NCBI GenBank assembly: GCA_035690485.1
Contig: DASSKL010000050.1
Coordinates: 1-42,574 of the forward strand
DNA from: Mycobacteriales bacterium
GTDB lineage: Bacteria; Actinomycetota; Actinomycetes; JAFAQI01; DASSKL01
Direction: 5' to 3'
Length of the DNA stretch: 42,574 nucleotides
In this document: positions 3,768-9,558 of the stretch, piece by piece
Position numbering within the stretch: position 1 is the first letter of the stretch
How the letters are laid out: each line of letters starts with the position of its first letter
Translations under genes and position numbers: made by a program
Notes under the pieces: model-generated
The model's database searches: none
The model's input: only the letters and a program-made list of their open reading frames with translations
Told to the model about the DNA's origin: nothing

Positions 3768-4397
3768 TCACTCCTCGAACATCGACATCGGGTCGAAGCC
3801 GGTCGGCGCCTCGACCTCGACGATCGGGTCGTCGCGGTCGTCGAACTCGACCCGCAGAGCGCGCGACATCACGGCGTGCATGAGGTAGAGCGACGTCGTG
3901 TAGGTCAACTCGAGCACCTCCTCGTCCGACAGGTGCTGCTGCAGCGCCTCGACGACCTCGTCGGCCACCCGGCCGCGGTCGTAGACGAGCCCGTCGGTGT
4001 AGGCGAGCACCGCGCGCTCGAGCGGCGTGAAGCAGTCGGCGACCCCCCAGTGCGGGATCGCCCGCACCTTCTCCTCCGGGATGCCGACGCCGCGGGCCGA
4101 CTTGCAGTGCTGCGAGAACACGAACTGGCTGCCCACCGCCCAACCGGCGCGGGTCATGCCGAGCTCACGCAGCTGGGGGTCGAGCCGGCGGTCGGGGCTG
4201 CGGTAGAGACCGAAGCCCTGCACGGCGTGCTTGAGGACGTCGGGCACCAGCGCGAAGACCGTCCACCAGTCGCCGGGCGTGCCGGTCGCGGTGCCGGGCT
4301 CGGCGACCGGGTCGCGGTCGGGACCGAAGAGCCGGTCGTAGAGCCGGGTGGCCAGCGGGCCCGCCTCGGCCCGGCCGACCTGGCGCAGGCGGGGCAT
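3768..4397 (-). CDS. AhpD/carboxymuconolactone decarboxylase-like protein
   Basis: A 209-residue all-helical protein of the CMD/AhpD-like superfamily. The core helix G-W-A-V-G-S-Q-F-V-F-S-Q-H-C at 85-98, followed by A-R-G-V-G-I-P, matches the (Y/F)-x-W/F-x-x-H-x-x-x-A-x-x-x-G pattern of CMD proteins. The later L-E-R-A-V-L-A-Y-T-D segment is the usual second conserved helix. The redox C-x-x-C of classical AhpD peroxidase is absent; only H97-C98 occupy that area. A dithiol peroxidase function is therefore unlikely, and a decarboxylase-like or unknown role is open. The ATG overlaps the TGA of a 15-codon leader ORF (TGATG), so translation is probably coupled. It follows the flavin operon on the same strand with a 53-base gap before the leader and may be its last gene. 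Confidence 0.82.
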   Translation of the reverse strand: MPRLRQVGRAEAGPLATRLYDRLFGPDRDPVAEPGTATGTPGDWWTVFALVPDVLKHAVQGFGLYRSPDRRLDPQLRELGMTRAGWAVGSQFVFSQHCKSARGVGIPEEKVRAIPHWGVADCFTPLERAVLAYTDGLVYDRGRVADEVVEALQQHLSDEEVLELTYTTSLYLMHAVMSRALRVEFDDRDDPIVEVEAPTGFDPMSMFEE

Positions 4398-4497: not shown

Positions 4498-5271
4498 TCA
4501 CCCCGGGAAGCCGTCGCTGCGGCGTACGACGCCGGCCCGGTCGACCGTGAGCAGCGTGTAGCCGTCGAGCCGGCCGAACCACGAAGGCTGCGGGTCGCCG
4601 CCCGCGATGACCGCGGTGGCGTAGGCGTCGGCCCGGGTCAGGTCGGGACCGACGACGGTGGCACTGAGCAGCCGGGTCGCCGGGGCGCCGGTACGCGGGT
4701 CGATCACGTGCTCCCCGCGCTCGGCGACTCCCGAGGTCGCGACACCTTCGTCGCGCGCCGGCACGACGACCAGCACGCGGTTGCGGTCGTACGGGTCCGC
4801 GACACCGACCCGCCACGGCTCACCGGGGCCGGGCTCGCCGGCGCAGGCGACGTCGCCGCCGGCGTTGACGACGTGGTCGGACAGGCCGGCTCGGCGCAGC
4901 AGGACGCTCGCCTCCTGCGCGGCCCAGCCCTTGACGATGCCGGTCGGGTCGACCGCGCCGCCGATCAGTGCGGTGAAGAACCCGTCGGTCTCCGCCGCCG
5001 CCTGGGCGCACAGGTCCAGCACGACGGCGACCTGCGGGTCGCAGTCACGCAGCCGCAGCTCGCCGCGGCGCAGCCGGCTGAGCTGCGACTCGGGCTGGTA
5101 CGTGGAGAACGTCGCGTCGACCCATCGCAGCCAGTCGCAGGCCGCCTCGACCGCGCGCGCCGCGTCGTCGGGATCGATGCGGATGCGGCGTACGTCGAAA
5201 GAGGTGACCGTCCCCATCACCGGCAGGACGCGGCGGTAGCTGTCGCCGGCGGCCTGTCCGGTGCTGGTCAC
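4498..5271 (-). CDS. apbE: FAD:protein FMN transferase (ApbE family)
   Basis: A 257-residue flavinyltransferase that moves FMN from FAD onto a Thr of target proteins, using Mg2+. Family motifs are in order: M-G-T at 19-21, D-P-T-G-I-V-K-G-W-A at 108-117, N-A-G-G-D at 136-140, H-V-I-D-P-R-T-G at 188-195 and the metal-site D-A-Y-A-T-A at 215-220. No clear signal peptide or lipobox is present, so it may act on the cytoplasmic side or be exported without a typical signal. The GTG start overlaps the stop of the FMN-binding protein gene by four bases, so the enzyme and its probable substrate are translationally coupled. That substrate carries a textbook flavinylation site. It is slightly short compared with Gram-negative ApbE (about 330), as is common in actinobacteria. 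Confidence 0.93.
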   Translation of the reverse strand: MTSTGQAAGDSYRRVLPVMGTVTSFDVRRIRIDPDDAARAVEAACDWLRWVDATFSTYQPESQLSRLRRGELRLRDCDPQVAVVLDLCAQAAAETDGFFTALIGGAVDPTGIVKGWAAQEASVLLRRAGLSDHVVNAGGDVACAGEPGPGEPWRVGVADPYDRNRVLVVVPARDEGVATSGVAERGEHVIDPRTGAPATRLLSATVVGPDLTRADAYATAVIAGGDPQPSWFGRLDGYTLLTVDRAGVVRRSDGFPG

Positions 5272-5759
5272 GCCTTCAGTCTGTCGAGCGCCGACTGCAA
5301 CGACCTGACGTAGCCCTCGGAGGTGTAGGTCGCGCCGGACACCGCGTCGATCTGCGCGGACTGCGCCTGCAGCGCCTCGGCGCGCAGCTGCGGCACGGCG
5401 TAGTTGTCGATGTCGATGTCACGGCCGCTGCCCTGCGGCAGCTGCAGCGCCGCGACGTCGGTGATCCGGCCGTTCGACTCGGTGACCTGCACCTGCACCG
5501 GGCCGTACTGCGTGTCGTAGGTCCGGCCTGCGACGGTCCGTGGCCCGGACGCCGCCGGCGCGGCGCCGGCCTTCGTGCTGCCGCTCGTCGCGCCCGCGGG
5601 GGTGCCGGAACCTCCACTGCCGGACGCCGTCTTGCCCCCGGCGGTCGGGGCGAGGGCGGCGGTGCCGCCGCCGATGGCGGGGCTGCCGTGCGTCTTGAAG
5701 CCGAGCAGCAGCACGAGGCCGGCGATGGTGGAGACGATGGCGAGTGCGGCGCGACGCAC
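5268..5759 (-). CDS. Membrane-anchored FMN-binding domain protein
   Basis: A 163-residue protein with one N-terminal hydrophobic segment (residues about 4-21), a flexible Gly/Ser/Thr/Ala-rich linker (about 25-75) and an FMN-binding domain (about 78-163). The site D-A-V-S-G-A-T at 138-144, followed by Y-T-S, fits the Dgx(s/t)gAT flavinylation consensus, with T144 as the expected covalent FMN acceptor. The domain should sit outside the membrane and carry electrons. The GTG start at 5759 is chosen because AAAGGA lies 7 bases upstream and the hydrophobic anchor begins right after it; the frame is open further but reads as non-coding. It lies between the reductase and apbE in the same operon. It resembles known ApbE-dependent extracytosolic flavoproteins; its electron acceptor is unknown. 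Confidence 0.9.
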   Translation of the reverse strand: MRRAALAIVSTIAGLVLLLGFKTHGSPAIGGGTAALAPTAGGKTASGSGGSGTPAGATSGSTKAGAAPAASGPRTVAGRTYDTQYGPVQVQVTESNGRITDVAALQLPQGSGRDIDIDNYAVPQLRAEALQAQSAQIDAVSGATYTSEGYVRSLQSALDRLKA

Positions 5760-5784
5760 GGGGCGGTCCTTTCGAGAGGGGGGG

Positions 5785-7161
5785 TCAGAACGCGAAGTTC
5801 TCGCTGTGGATGTGCCGCCGGCTGACGCCGAGCCGGCGCAGTGCGGCAGTAGCGGCGTTGACGAATCCGGGCGGGCCGCACACGTAGACGTCGTGCGCGC
5901 GCAGGTCCGGCAGCAGCCGGCGCAGCCGGTCGCCGACCAGCACGTCGCGGTCACCGCCGACACGACCGGGCAGGAAGTGTGCTGCCTGCTCCCGGCGCTC
6001 GGCCAGGGTCTCGATCTCGCGCCGCAGCACAAGGTCGTCCGGACGCTCGGCGCGGTAGACCAGCGTCAGGTCACCGGGTGCCGCCGGCAGCGACTGGAAC
6101 AGCGCCCGCAGCGGGGTGATGCCGATGCCGCCGGCGAGCAGCAGGACCTTGCGCCGCGTGCGCCGCTGCGCGGTCAGCGCCCCGTAGGGCCCTTCGACCA
6201 GCACGCGGGTGCCGTGCCGCAGCGCCGGCATGTGACCCGTGTGGTCGCCGAGGTGCTTGACGGTGACGCGCAGCAGGTCGCCGTGGGGTGCGGCGGACAG
6301 GGAGAACGGGTGGGCCGCCCACCAGAGGTCGCGGCTCAGGAAGCGCAGCCGGACGAACTGGCCGGGCTGCACCCCGAGCTCGTCGACGTGCCGGCCGCGC
6401 AGGACGATCGACACGACACCCGGCCCCTCGGCGACGACGCGGCCGACCCGCATCCGGTGCCGCCACGTGCGGTAGGCCGGGGTGGCGATGCGGTGCCAGA
6501 CGACGGCGCCCGCGGCGAACAGGTAGAGCGCCGACCACAGCACCCGCGCGAACGGGTGGCTGGCGAACTCCTGCCCGGTCGCGAAGACGTGCGCGAACGA
6601 CAGGGCGATCGCGAGATAGGTGTAGAGGTGCAGGTAGTACCACGTCTCGTAGCGCATCCGGGCCCGCGCCGCGCGGGCCGACACGACGCCGACCCCGACC
6701 AGCAGCAGCCCGCCGACCGTCGCCATCAGCACGTCGGGATAGCTGAGCAGCAACGTCGACGCCTGGCGTACGACGCCGGTGTGGGCCAGCACGGCGTAGC
6801 CCCAGGTGACGAGCAGCCCGTGTGCCACGACGAGGCCGACCGTGTAGCGGCCGGCACGGGCGTGCCAGCGGGCGAGGACGTCGGCGCCGACGTGGTGCTC
6901 GAGCAGCGGCGTACGCGCCATCAGGATCAGCAGCCAGGCCAGCAGGTAGCCGGCGAGCAGGCCGGTGATGCGCCCCGCGTTGGTCAGCCAGTCGCCGAGG
7001 CCGTGGACGGTGGGGGTGTTCACCCACCACCAGCCGACCACCGCGGCGGCGCCGGCTGCGACGGCGAGCGCCGTCAGCGGAGCGACCAGCCGCCCGCGTC
7101 CCGGCCGCGCGGCGAGCAGCGGCCCACGCGTCGTGGCCGGAGTGTCGGCGAGAGCGGTCAT
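5785..7161 (-). CDS. Ferric-reductase-like transmembrane flavin oxidoreductase
   Basis: A 458-residue membrane oxidoreductase. The N-terminal half has about six hydrophobic helices with paired histidines suited to heme b (H100 and H114, H178 and H191), the ferric-reductase/NADPH-oxidase-like core. The C-terminal half is a ferredoxin-NADP reductase-type module: FAD motif H-P-F-S-L-S at 284-289, nucleotide motif A-G-G-I-G-I-T-P at 343-350 and C-G-P-P-G-F at 428-433. It should take electrons from cytosolic NAD(P)H through FAD and heme to the outer face. The next gene encodes a tethered FMN protein and the third encodes ApbE, so the likely flow is NAD(P)H, FAD, heme, FMN protein, unknown acceptor. 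The ATG has GGTGGA upstream. It is divergent from a response regulator across a 142-base gap holding the CAGAG boxes. Confidence 0.92.
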   Translation of the reverse strand: MTALADTPATTRGPLLAARPGRGRLVAPLTALAVAAGAAAVVGWWWVNTPTVHGLGDWLTNAGRITGLLAGYLLAWLLILMARTPLLEHHVGADVLARWHARAGRYTVGLVVAHGLLVTWGYAVLAHTGVVRQASTLLLSYPDVLMATVGGLLLVGVGVVSARAARARMRYETWYYLHLYTYLAIALSFAHVFATGQEFASHPFARVLWSALYLFAAGAVVWHRIATPAYRTWRHRMRVGRVVAEGPGVVSIVLRGRHVDELGVQPGQFVRLRFLSRDLWWAAHPFSLSAAPHGDLLRVTVKHLGDHTGHMPALRHGTRVLVEGPYGALTAQRRTRRKVLLLAGGIGITPLRALFQSLPAAPGDLTLVYRAERPDDLVLRREIETLAERREQAAHFLPGRVGGDRDVLVGDRLRRLLPDLRAHDVYVCGPPGFVNAATAALRRLGVSRRHIHSENFAF

Positions 7162-7205
7162 GCATCCACCGTCGCCGCGGTTCCTTAAGGCACGCTCGCC
7201 CTTCG

Positions 7206-7268
7206 CTCTGTGTTTCCTCTGAACGTGCCGGCGAGGAATCTCAGAGCGTTCTCAGAGGTTTCGCAGAG
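7206..7268. promoter_or_regulatory. Five CAGAG boxes at 11-bp spacing in divergent promoter gap
   Basis: Plus-strand heptamers CTCAGAG (7240-7246), CTCAGAG (7251-7257) and CGCAGAG (7262-7268) repeat exactly every 11 bases. On the minus strand TTCAGAG (7217-7223) and CACAGAG (7206-7212) do the same, pointing the other way. The 11-bp period puts half-sites on one face of the helix, the standard arrangement for head-to-tail dimers of OmpR/PhoB regulators. The boxes lie between the ferric-reductase operon and the response regulator gene, so one regulator could control both directions. That the adjacent regulator binds here is an inference. Confidence 0.72.
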
Positions 7269-7303
7269 CATCGCGTCACGTCCCCGATGTGAAGGTGACA
7301 TCC

Positions 7304-8056
7304 GTGACCGCCTCCTCCGCCGCCTCGCCGCGTACCGCCCCCGACCTGCGCCGCCCCGACGGCTCGCCGATCCGGGTGCTCGTCGTCGACGACGAGCCGA
7401 GCCTCGCGGAGGTCCTCGGCAGCGTGCTGCGCTACGAGGGTTGGGATGTCCAGGTGGCCGGGTCAGGGCAGGAGGCCGTGCGGACCGCGCGGGAGTTCAA
7501 GCCCGACGCGGTGATCCTCGACGTGATGCTGCCGGACTTCGACGGCCTGGAGGTGCTGCGCCGCATCCGCGCGGATCAGCCGCACGCCTGCGTGCTCTTC
7601 CTCACCGCGCGCGACGCGGTCGAGGACCGCATCGCCGGCATCACTGCGGGCGGCGACGACTACGTCACGAAGCCGTTCAGCCTCGAGGAGGTCATCGCCC
7701 GGCTGCGCGGCCTGCTGCGCCGGGCCGGGCTGGCCCGGGCCAAGGCGTCGAGCAACCTGCTGAGGTTCGCCGACCTCGAGATGGACGAGGACGCACACGA
7801 GGTACGCCGCGGTGGTGACCTGGTAGAGCTGACCACGACCGAGTTCGAGCTGCTGCGCTTCCTCCTGCGCAACCCGCGCCGGGTGCTGTCCAAGGCGCAG
7901 ATCCTCGACCGGGTCTGGAACTACGACTTCGGCGGGCAGGCGCACGTGGTCGAGCTCTACATCTCCTACCTGCGCAAGAAGATCGACGCAGGCCGCGAAC
8001 CGCTGATCCACACCGTCCGCGGTGCCGGCTACGTGTTGAAGGCAGTAGGCGGGTGA
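7304..8056 (+). CDS. OmpR/PhoB-family response regulator
   Basis: A 250-residue two-domain response regulator. The receiver has the acidic pair D29-D30 (V-V-D-D-E-P), the phosphoacceptor D73 (V-I-L-D-V-M-L-P) and a K-P-F motif. The C-terminal winged-helix domain has the T-T-T-E-F-E-L-L-R-F-L-L and Y-I-S-Y-L-R-K-K-I-D patterns of the OmpR/PhoB class. The GTG at 7304 is chosen because GAAGG lies 8 bases upstream; a GTG at 7289 would add five residues but has no Shine-Dalgarno. The stop overlaps the kinase GTG by four bases. Upstream are direct repeats spaced 11 bp, the site type this family binds, so autoregulation and control of the divergent flavin operon are likely. Confidence 0.94.
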   Translation: MTASSAASPRTAPDLRRPDGSPIRVLVVDDEPSLAEVLGSVLRYEGWDVQVAGSGQEAVRTAREFKPDAVILDVMLPDFDGLEVLRRIRADQPHACVLFLTARDAVEDRIAGITAGGDDYVTKPFSLEEVIARLRGLLRRAGLARAKASSNLLRFADLEMDEDAHEVRRGGDLVELTTTEFELLRFLLRNPRRVLSKAQILDRVWNYDFGGQAHVVELYISYLRKKIDAGREPLIHTVRGAGYVLKAVGG

Positions 8057-9558
8057 CCTTGCGGTTGCGCCGGTGGTGGACGGCGCGGACGTTGCGCTGG
8101 CGGCTGATCGCCGGGCTGCTCGTGCTGCTGCTGGCGACCTGCGCGGCGATCGGCATCGCGACGACGCTCGCGCTGCACAGCTTCCTGATCCAGCGGCTCG
8201 ACCAGCAGCTGGCCGACGCCGGGCCACGGCTGGCGTTCAGCCTCGAGCACGACAACAGCGGCGGCCGTGGCGGCGCGCCCACCGACTTCGACGACAGCCT
8301 GCTGCGCGGACAGCAGCTCGGCACCTTCGCCGCCCGGCTCAGCGGCGGTCGGGTGACCAACGCAGCGGTGGCCCGCGAGTCCGACCACCAGGTGCAGCTC
8401 GTGCAGGTGCCCCTCGGCGGCGACGAAGCCGCGCGCCTGCGCGCGCTGCCCACCGACGGCCGGGCGACCTCCGCGCAGCTGGGCGTGCTCGGCGACTACC
8501 GGCTCACCGCGGTGCACGGCGCGGACGGCGACGTGCTCGTGACCGGGCTGCCGCTCGACAGCGTCGACAGCACCATGCACCGCCTGGAAGGCATCGAGGT
8601 CGTCGTCTTCCTGTGCGCGCTGGCACTGGCGGGTCTGGTGGGCGCGGCGTCGGTCCGGCTGTCGCTGCGACCGCTGCGCCGGGTGACGCACACGGCGCTC
8701 GACGTGGCGCGCACGCCGCTCGCCAGCGGCGAGGTCTCGCTGCCCGCGCGGGTCCCCGACAGCGATGCCGATCCGGCGACCGAGGTCGGCCAGGTCGGCG
8801 CCGCGGTCAACCAGATGCTCGGCCACGTCGAACGTTCGCTGGCCGAGCGGCACGCGACCGAGGAGCGGCTGCGCCAGTTCATCGCCGACGCGAGCCACGA
8901 GCTGCGCACCCCGCTGGCCGCGATCCGCAGCCACGCGGAGCTGGCCGGCCGCGACGAGGAGACCCTGCCCGACGGCGTACGCCATGCGCTGCGCCGGGTC
9001 GAGGCGGAGGCGTCGCGCATGGGGGTGCTCGTCGACGACCTGCTGCTCCTGGCCCGTCTCGACGCGGGCCGCCCGCTGGCCAGGGAGGCCGTCGACCTGA
9101 CCCGCGTGGTGATCGACGCCACGAGCGACGCGCAGGCGGCCAGCCGCGGCCACCGGTGGATGCTCGAGCTGCCCGAGGAGCCGATCGTCGTCACCGGCGA
9201 CGGGCACCGCCTGCACCAGGTGCTCGCGAACCTGCTGGCCAACGCCCGCACGCACACCCCGGCCGGTACGACGGTGACGGTGGCGCTGCACATGGATGTC
9301 GCGAACGACCTTGCGCTGCTGCAGGTCTGCGACGACGGCCCGGGGATACCGCAGGAATTGCAGGACCGGGTCTTCGAACGCTTCGCGCGGGCCGACGCGG
9401 CGCGCACCCGCACCGCCGGCAGCACCGGGCTGGGGCTGGCGATCGTCGCCGCGGTCGTCGAGGCGCACGGCGGGACCGTGCGCGTCAGCAGCCGGCCCGG
9501 TCGCACCTGCTTCGAGGTGTCGCTGCCACTGGCTCCGGCGATGCAACCGGCGCGCTAG
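8053..9558 (+). CDS. Sensor histidine kinase with HAMP domain
   Basis: A 501-residue membrane kinase. Transmembrane helix 1 (about 15-42) and helix 2 (about 176-204) flank a sensor loop of about 130 residues outside the cell. A HAMP linker follows, then HisKA with the phosphoacceptor H282 in D-A-S-H-E-L-R-T-P. The ATPase domain has the N box (A-N-L-L-A-N-A-R-T-H-T), G1 (D-D-G-P-G-I-P) and G2 (G-S-T-G-L-G-L-A-I-V). The GTG start overlaps the regulator stop (GTGA). The sensor loop has no Cys and no recognised domain, so the signal is unknown; redox or envelope state is plausible given the divergent electron-transfer operon. It is convergent with the aminotransferase gene, with the stops directly abutting. 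Confidence 0.94.
   Translation: MTLRLRRWWTARTLRWRLIAGLLVLLLATCAAIGIATTLALHSFLIQRLDQQLADAGPRLAFSLEHDNSGGRGGAPTDFDDSLLRGQQLGTFAARLSGGRVTNAAVARESDHQVQLVQVPLGGDEAARLRALPTDGRATSAQLGVLGDYRLTAVHGADGDVLVTGLPLDSVDSTMHRLEGIEVVVFLCALALAGLVGAASVRLSLRPLRRVTHTALDVARTPLASGEVSLPARVPDSDADPATEVGQVGAAVNQMLGHVERSLAERHATEERLRQFIADASHELRTPLAAIRSHAELAGRDEETLPDGVRHALRRVEAEASRMGVLVDDLLLLARLDAGRPLAREAVDLTRVVIDATSDAQAASRGHRWMLELPEEPIVVTGDGHRLHQVLANLLANARTHTPAGTTVTVALHMDVANDLALLQVCDDGPGIPQELQDRVFERFARADAARTRTAGSTGLGLAIVAAVVEAHGGTVRVSSRPGRTCFEVSLPLAPAMQPAR

Follow-up and report, generated by a model that had tools for sequence, protein, structure and literature searches.

Two operons diverge from a short intergenic region in a contig of a Mycobacteriales bacterium (DASSKL010000050.1, positions 1 to 42,574; this whole stretch of 42,574 bases is called the window). 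One encodes a ferric-reductase-like membrane protein, an FMN-binding protein and ApbE, the other an OmpR-type response regulator and a sensor histidine kinase. Does the two-component system control only its own genes, or also the flavin electron-transfer operon on the opposite strand? The comparison with related genomes points to the second answer. It is quite probable that a dedicated two-component system of the PhoP type controls both itself and the divergent MsrQ-like flavinylation operon by means of outward-reading box arrays, whose central G would be read by His219 of the regulator.

Outward box arrays and the adjacent regulator

Both groups of boxes between the ferric-reductase-like and the OmpR-type regulator gene proceed in steps of 11 bp and read outward. 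On the plus strand, heptamers are found at 7241-7247 (TCAGAGC), 7252-7258 (TCAGAGG) and 7263-7269 (GCAGAGC), and on the minus strand at 7222-7216 (TCAGAGG) and 7211-7205 (ACAGAGC). The five CAGAG cores that an earlier note on this DNA had described were confirmed at 7242-7246, 7253-7257 and 7264-7268 (plus) and at 7206-7210 and 7217-7221 (minus). A half-site is, however, better described as a heptamer TCAGAG[GC] followed by a 4-bp spacer. In the window, pairs of CAGAG at a distance (lag) of 11 bp occur at this intergenic region only, and the total number of CAGAG is with 32 below the expectation of about 90 deduced from shuffles. When 7162-7303 was shuffled 20,000 times with dinucleotides preserved, at least three pairs in total or at least two plus-strand pairs never arose, and a minus-strand pair arose twice. 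The gap of 142 bases given in the earlier note is correct if the regulator begins at 7304, but is reduced to 127 bases if the GTG at 7289 is the start.

Table 1. Features of the divergent locus; positions are those of the window.
Feature	Position	Strand	Basis
Regulator-facing array TCAGAGC-N4-TCAGAGG-N4-GCAGAGC	7241..7269	+	sequence; kept in relatives
Reductase-facing array TCAGAGG-N4-ACAGAGC	7205..7222	-	sequence; kept in relatives
PhoP-like OmpR/PhoB response regulator, acceptor Asp78, His219 in recognition helix	7289..8056	+	Pfam Response_reg + Trans_reg_C
Sensor histidine kinase, H-box His282, outer domain of about 130 residues	8053..9558	+	Pfam HisKA + HATPase_c; alignment
MsrQ-like/ferric-reductase-like membrane protein with FAD and NAD domains	5785..7161	-	Pfam Ferric_reduct + FAD_binding_8 + NAD_binding_1
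FMN_bind protein, N-terminal hydrophobic anchor, flavinylation site Thr144	5268..5759	-	Pfam FMN_bind 9.7e-10; motif
apbE, FAD:protein FMN transferase, no hydrophobic signal seen	4498..5271	-	Pfam ApbE 1.4e-40

The regulator possesses both the receiver and the winged-helix domain, and the receiver contains the switch residue Thr106 and Lys128 in addition to the acceptor aspartate. By sequence, its closest solved relative is PhoP from M. tuberculosis (276 bits), followed by PrrA (192), MtrA (171) and RegX3 (168). According to the cited parts of PMC4832192, PhoP recognizes repeats of TCACAGC whose spacer is strictly 4 bp long. It binds them as a tandem dimer, which may be extended to trimers and tetramers, and its residue Asn212 forms a hydrogen bond with the C at the centre of the motif. 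The half-site frame, the 4-bp spacer and the recognition residues Val, Glu, Tyr and Tyr are common to both systems. In contrast, the regulator studied here contains His219 instead of Asn212 and Leu223 instead of Ser216, faces TCAGAG[GC] boxes and not TCACAGC, and is genetically linked to a flavinylation operon. Its 7-bp direct repeats with a strict 4-bp spacer are those of the PhoP-like branch, whereas the TCACAGC box and the Asn at the base-reading position are replaced by TCAGAG[GC] and His219. To judge from sequence, the regulator is a variant of the PhoP-like branch rather than an orthologue of the same specificity.

We infer that the phosphorylated regulator would bind each outward TCAGAG[GC]-N4 array as a head-to-tail dimer or trimer and would recruit RNA polymerase to the promoter faced by the respective array, which would activate both operons. 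A cell-surface signal would then raise the sensor and the electron-export chain together. In the latter, electrons from NAD(P)H would pass FAD and then two haems to cross the membrane and reach a flavinylated, putatively outer protein. The central G would be read by His219 in the recognition helix, whereas the Asn of the sister branch would read C.

Conservation of the arrays and their link to the reductase

The reductase was found at an E-value of 1e-30 or better in 51 of the 99 genomes searched (own genome included), and the regulator at 1e-70 or better in 300 of 393 genomes of the class. From a longer list of matches, the 29 best reductase-centred loci other than the window's own were taken, each with roughly 1.5 kb of flanking sequence; four of them (L011, L013, L019, L025) have the regulator divergently next door. 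Regulator-centred loci were taken from two collections (30 + 80), and in 22 of these 110 the reductase lies divergently within 1.5 kb; this linkage rate is biased, because the loci were picked by their likeness to linked regulators. One locus with a short upstream region (L098) and the near-copies L035, L094, L103, L124 and L141 were dropped, which left 104 loci, 20 linked and 84 unlinked. Arrays were assessed by means of a half-site score that ignores the central base and was shaped after inspection of these loci. As a chance background, 3.9% of 2,330 random stretches score at least 8 and 2.3% at least 9.

Upstream of the regulator, a best-pair score of at least 8 was reached in 102 of the 104 loci, and 88 of them show a CA[N]AG pair at lag 11 on the regulator strand (17/20 linked, 71/84 unlinked). 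All other lags between 6 and 30 were observed on this strand in at most two of the linked and four of the unlinked loci, with the exception of lag 22, which is twice 11 (7/20 and 40/84), and lag 24 (9/84). The 11-bp phasing, whose absence from related genomes would have spoken against the earlier note, is thus conserved.

An array scoring at least 8 faces the reductase in all 20 linked loci, and such an array exists on the same side in 22 of the 84 unlinked ones, compared to the background of 3.9%. Among the 29 loci whose regulator contains His219 (His-type loci), the reductase-facing array is present in 20/20 loci with a divergent reductase and in 0/9 without (Fisher 1e-7; this and all other Fisher values are uncorrected for descent). 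The unlinked locus L060 is cut by a contig end; at the start of contig C20 of the same genome, a TCAGAG array is found together with a gene for the reductase.

These numbers bear on the possibility that the arrays act only in autoregulation of the two-component operon. In this case, the minus-strand pair would be a leftover or auxiliary element, and the reductase would be under some other control, for example by an iron or redox regulator. The retention of the regulator-facing array in loci without the reductase (lag-11 pairs in 71/84) is in line with this explanation, as are the minus-strand arrays in 22 of 75 non-His loci that lack the reductase (score at least 8). However, it does not account for the 20/20 versus 0/9 distribution in the His-type loci nor for the fixed distance of 9 nt between the minus-strand array and a reductase-side hexamer in 18/20 loci; moreover, the minus-strand arrays of other loci may point at different divergent genes, such as VIT1 in L093. 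Autoregulation alone is therefore rather improbable. The comparison supports the proposal of the earlier note that the boxes are sites of the regulator which probably serve both promoters (reductase-facing 20/20 versus 0/9, regulator-facing 102/104).

The geometry of the promoters is regular as well. A hexamer CA-N-N-G-T/C begins exactly 9 nt past the last reductase-facing box in the 18 linked loci mentioned. On the regulator side, a GATSCTGG-like element follows the boxes in 18 of the 29 His-type loci at a distance of 9, 21 or 31-33 nt, which corresponds to 9-10 nt modulo 11 in 16 of the 18. Given these spacings, the boxes tend to hold the same helix face relative to the promoter; both patterns, that of the hexamer and that of the phase, were defined after the alignment had been viewed, and the loci are largely from related Streptomyces. 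Alternatively, the regulator might be a repressor of both operons, whose boxes block the polymerase until the signal arrives. In favour of this is the variable distance between the last box and the -10-like element on the regulator side (9, 21, 31-33 nt). Repression would need no phase, though, and a gap that stays at 9 nt on the reductase side, together with the helical phasing on the other, fits an activator that touches the polymerase. Repression is accordingly considered unlikely, albeit less so than autoregulation alone.

Several observations limit the case for activation of both operons by the two-component system. Adjacent genes need not be co-regulated, and the linkage rate is biased as stated. 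The reductase strand also shows CA[N]AG pairs at lags 15 (7/20) and 26 (9/20), which are due to the above hexamer (CACAGT). The regulator-side array of L062 scores just 8.0. The window itself lacks the CA-N-N-G-T/C hexamer at 9 nt; on its regulator side, no GATSCTGG-like element was found at the above distances.

Arrays were also seen at MsrQ-like reductases that have no adjacent regulator. Upstream of four out of 25 (L005, L006, L007, L021), CACAG-type 11-bp arrays score at least 9.0 (2.3% expected); the array of L007 falls inside the predicted gene start, and the four cases are a hint only. The divergent genes of unlinked loci are longest-ORF (open reading frame) picks in high-GC DNA and mostly unconvincing as genes. 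Six of them were tested with Pfam, which yielded one VIT1, one TPR and one sub-threshold DUF2680 match and no hit for three. At L076, for which an ORF list was inspected, a divergent apbE is a first impression only. The VIT1 case is Intrasporangium L093 (2591-3409), where an Asn-type regulator is divergent to a VIT1 iron-transporter gene and a CACAG-type array faces VIT1.

Residue 219 and the central base of the boxes

His219 occurs in all 20 linked regulators of the set and in nine unlinked ones. Counted by their central base, the box units of His-type loci comprise 50 G, 10 C and 9 T, and 182 of the 206 units of loci with an Asn at this position (Asn-type) contain C. The majority base per locus was determined for 128 loci, including Ser/Thr loci that were added through an Agromyces query. 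It is C for 79 of 88 Asn-type loci, G for 19 of 29 His-type loci (nine ties, one C) and T for 10 of 11 Ser/Thr loci. The Asn-type sister regulators of Actinomycetes, for instance those from Nocardioides, Micromonospora, Intrasporangium and Streptomyces, have the same domains and likewise 11-bp arrays in front of their own genes. They differ by their TCACAG[GC]-type boxes and by the lack of a divergent reductase, which was found in 0/75 non-His loci. Outside this non-His set, two reductase-linked loci exist, namely L019, which is Asn-type, and L025, whose contig ends before the helix.

Both types of regulator occur together in three of the genomes read. In G107, the boxes are TCAGAGG (L060) and TCTCAGG/TCACAGG (L188), in G198 TCAGAGG (L059) and TCTCAGG (L191), and in G021 the mixed boxes of L033 occur along with TCACAGC (L189).

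This covariation is also relevant for the question whether the boxes belong to some other actinobacterial regulator and lie next to this one by accident. Half-sites of the OmpR family are short, which leaves room for such an assignment. Yet the central base changes along with the neighbouring regulator's recognition helix, and does so at the very base that PhoP Asn212 contacts in the cited parts of PMC4832192; and CutR from Streptomyces, an OmpR-type candidate, binds TAWATAAA as described in the cited passages of PMC12802291. An accidental neighbourhood is thus very hard to believe.

Sites were also counted genome-wide. In 13 His-type genomes (12 read plus G161, a near-copy of one of them), TCAGAGS-N4-TCAGAGS with at most one mismatch was found 92 times, compared to 19 times for the reversed pattern, the count of G260 being close to its control (9 versus 6). 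The same search in six Streptomyces-like genomes without a His-type regulator, whose best regulator is Asn-type in each of the five with a helix read (all but G172), yielded 17 sites versus 23 for the reversed pattern. Exact pairs are present in 11 of the 13 His-type genomes and in none of the six others, a count that is partly circular because most of the 11 pairs are the promoter by which the regulator was classed.

On this basis we incline, if only slightly, to the view that residue 219 (PhoP 212), at the start of the recognition helix, sets the centre of every box in this regulator family, with Asn specifying C, His G and Ser/Thr T. The His branch, after a duplication, would thereby have been insulated from the Asn paralogue of the same genome and would have specialized in controlling outward flavin electron transfer across Actinomycetes. 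The Ser/Thr changes lend modest weight to the residue-base rule, with L073 as the one exception.

A number of findings tell against this view or against the proposed control of both operons. The His branch is a single clade (SH-aLRT 94-95), and the strong Fisher value (1e-19, ties left out) therefore rests on one independent change. The Ser/Thr loci provide one independent contrast on supported branches and three overall; of 200 random Ser/Thr pairings, 126 showed a change of the base in the same direction and three in the opposite direction, and the base was equal in 71. The trees were calculated by a quick method only, and the long branches of L187 and L019 meet in the second tree. Exceptions to the rule are L070 (His, C majority) and L073 (Ser, C), the mixed boxes of L033, L036 and L037 and, among the Asn-type loci, L133 (T), L139 and L019 (both G) and six ties. 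In the window's own genome, pairs within one mismatch occur at this promoter only. With at most two mismatches, 16 sites (three here, 13 elsewhere) compare to 24 for the reversed pattern; since the sites do not exceed this control, no wider regulon is claimed for this genome.

A one-residue/one-base correspondence in the large OmpR/PhoB family, together with a crystal contact, would aid the prediction of regulons. It would also explain how paralogous regulators keep apart within one genome.

The flavin electron-transfer operon, the kinase and further arrangements

The Pfam matches and the motif back the claim of the earlier note that the FMN-binding protein with its site T144 and ApbE form a flavinylation operon. 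The motif is DAVSGATYTS, with the Thr144 codon at 5328-5330, and all of the 55 FMN_bind matches that were read contain [ST]GA[ST] (overlapping loci kept in the count). The reductase contains two candidate haem pairs, H100/H114 and H178/H191, whose spacing presumably resembles that of bis-haem ferric reductases. An N-terminal hydrophobic segment, as judged by hydrophobicity, distinguishes the FMN_bind protein from ApbE. In 34 FMN_bind rows, the N-terminus consists of a basic pair and a hydrophobic segment, the pair being MRR in 17 and KR-type in three; the remaining 14 have a script-assigned start without a basic pair. None of 28 measured ApbE rows, two of which are from the same place, possesses a hydrophobic N-terminus (highest 17-residue mean 1.06), and a 29th row has just 11 residues before the match. 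Most ApbEs are secreted, and cytosolic ones also exist, as stated in the cited part of PMC12052999.

The gene layout, a PF01794 protein with apbE and FMN_bind, is that of the MsrQ-like flavinylation cluster, which according to the cited sections of Meheust et al. 2021 (PMC8238504) is broadly conserved in Actinobacteria. Common to both are the PF01794 membrane protein with a C-terminal NAD-binding domain, the FMN_bind protein and ApbE; the description of the cluster in these sections includes no two-component system, and ApbE lacks the hydrophobic N-terminus here. As far as this source goes, the operon type is already described. The earlier note was not aware of a described circuit that joins these parts; none of the matches listed, mostly open-access literature, ties a two-component system to an MsrQ-like operon or states the residue-base rule. 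New are the dedicated regulator branch and the residue-base rule. In the passages cited from PMC5449479, which deals with iron genes of Bifidobacterium, apbE and an FMN-binding protein are named, but no regulator for them. As MsrQ-like operons are described as common in Actinobacteria (PMC8238504, cited sections), a dedicated two-component system provides a handle on the inducing signal.

The earlier note had inferred an envelope or redox cue as the input of the kinase, and nothing was found in favour of this. In an alignment of the 29 His-type loci, the outer domain displays no conserved cysteine and no clear metal site, and 'SLEH' is frequent; for lack of such residues, no signal is proposed. 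A possible counterpart in Streptomyces, CutR, was rejected because its site differs. In the cited passages of PMC12802291, CutRS is likewise an OmpR-type two-component system and is tied to extracytoplasmic stress; its site is TAWATAAA, and its sensor has two conserved cysteines.

Some further arrangements were observed. In G029 and G066, two of the six Streptomyces-like genomes, a more distant regulator with 56% identity is divergent to another reductase of this family with 41-43% identity (L238, L239, 1501-3665). Both loci are without TCA-N-AG arrays, which counts against the proposed circuit, and have CGACAG/TGACAG units at 11-bp steps on the reductase-facing side. The pairing of OmpR-type systems with an MsrQ-like operon may thus extend beyond the His branch. 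Three genomes of family f17 have arrays of three to four CAGAG-like boxes upstream of an acyl-CoA-ligase-like gene, in reverse orientation to this gene (L227 1600-1639, L229 1560-1590, L231 1472-1511). The product matches Pfam AMP-binding in the two cases tested (L227 and L229), and the gene may be another target of the His-type regulator. Elsewhere in its genome (G000, contig C73, 6190-7539), the bacterium of the window encodes a further member of the reductase family with 39% identity. Finally, a gene of the carboxymuconolactone-decarboxylase family (3768-4397) lies on the same strand about 100 bases downstream of apbE and may be part of the operon.

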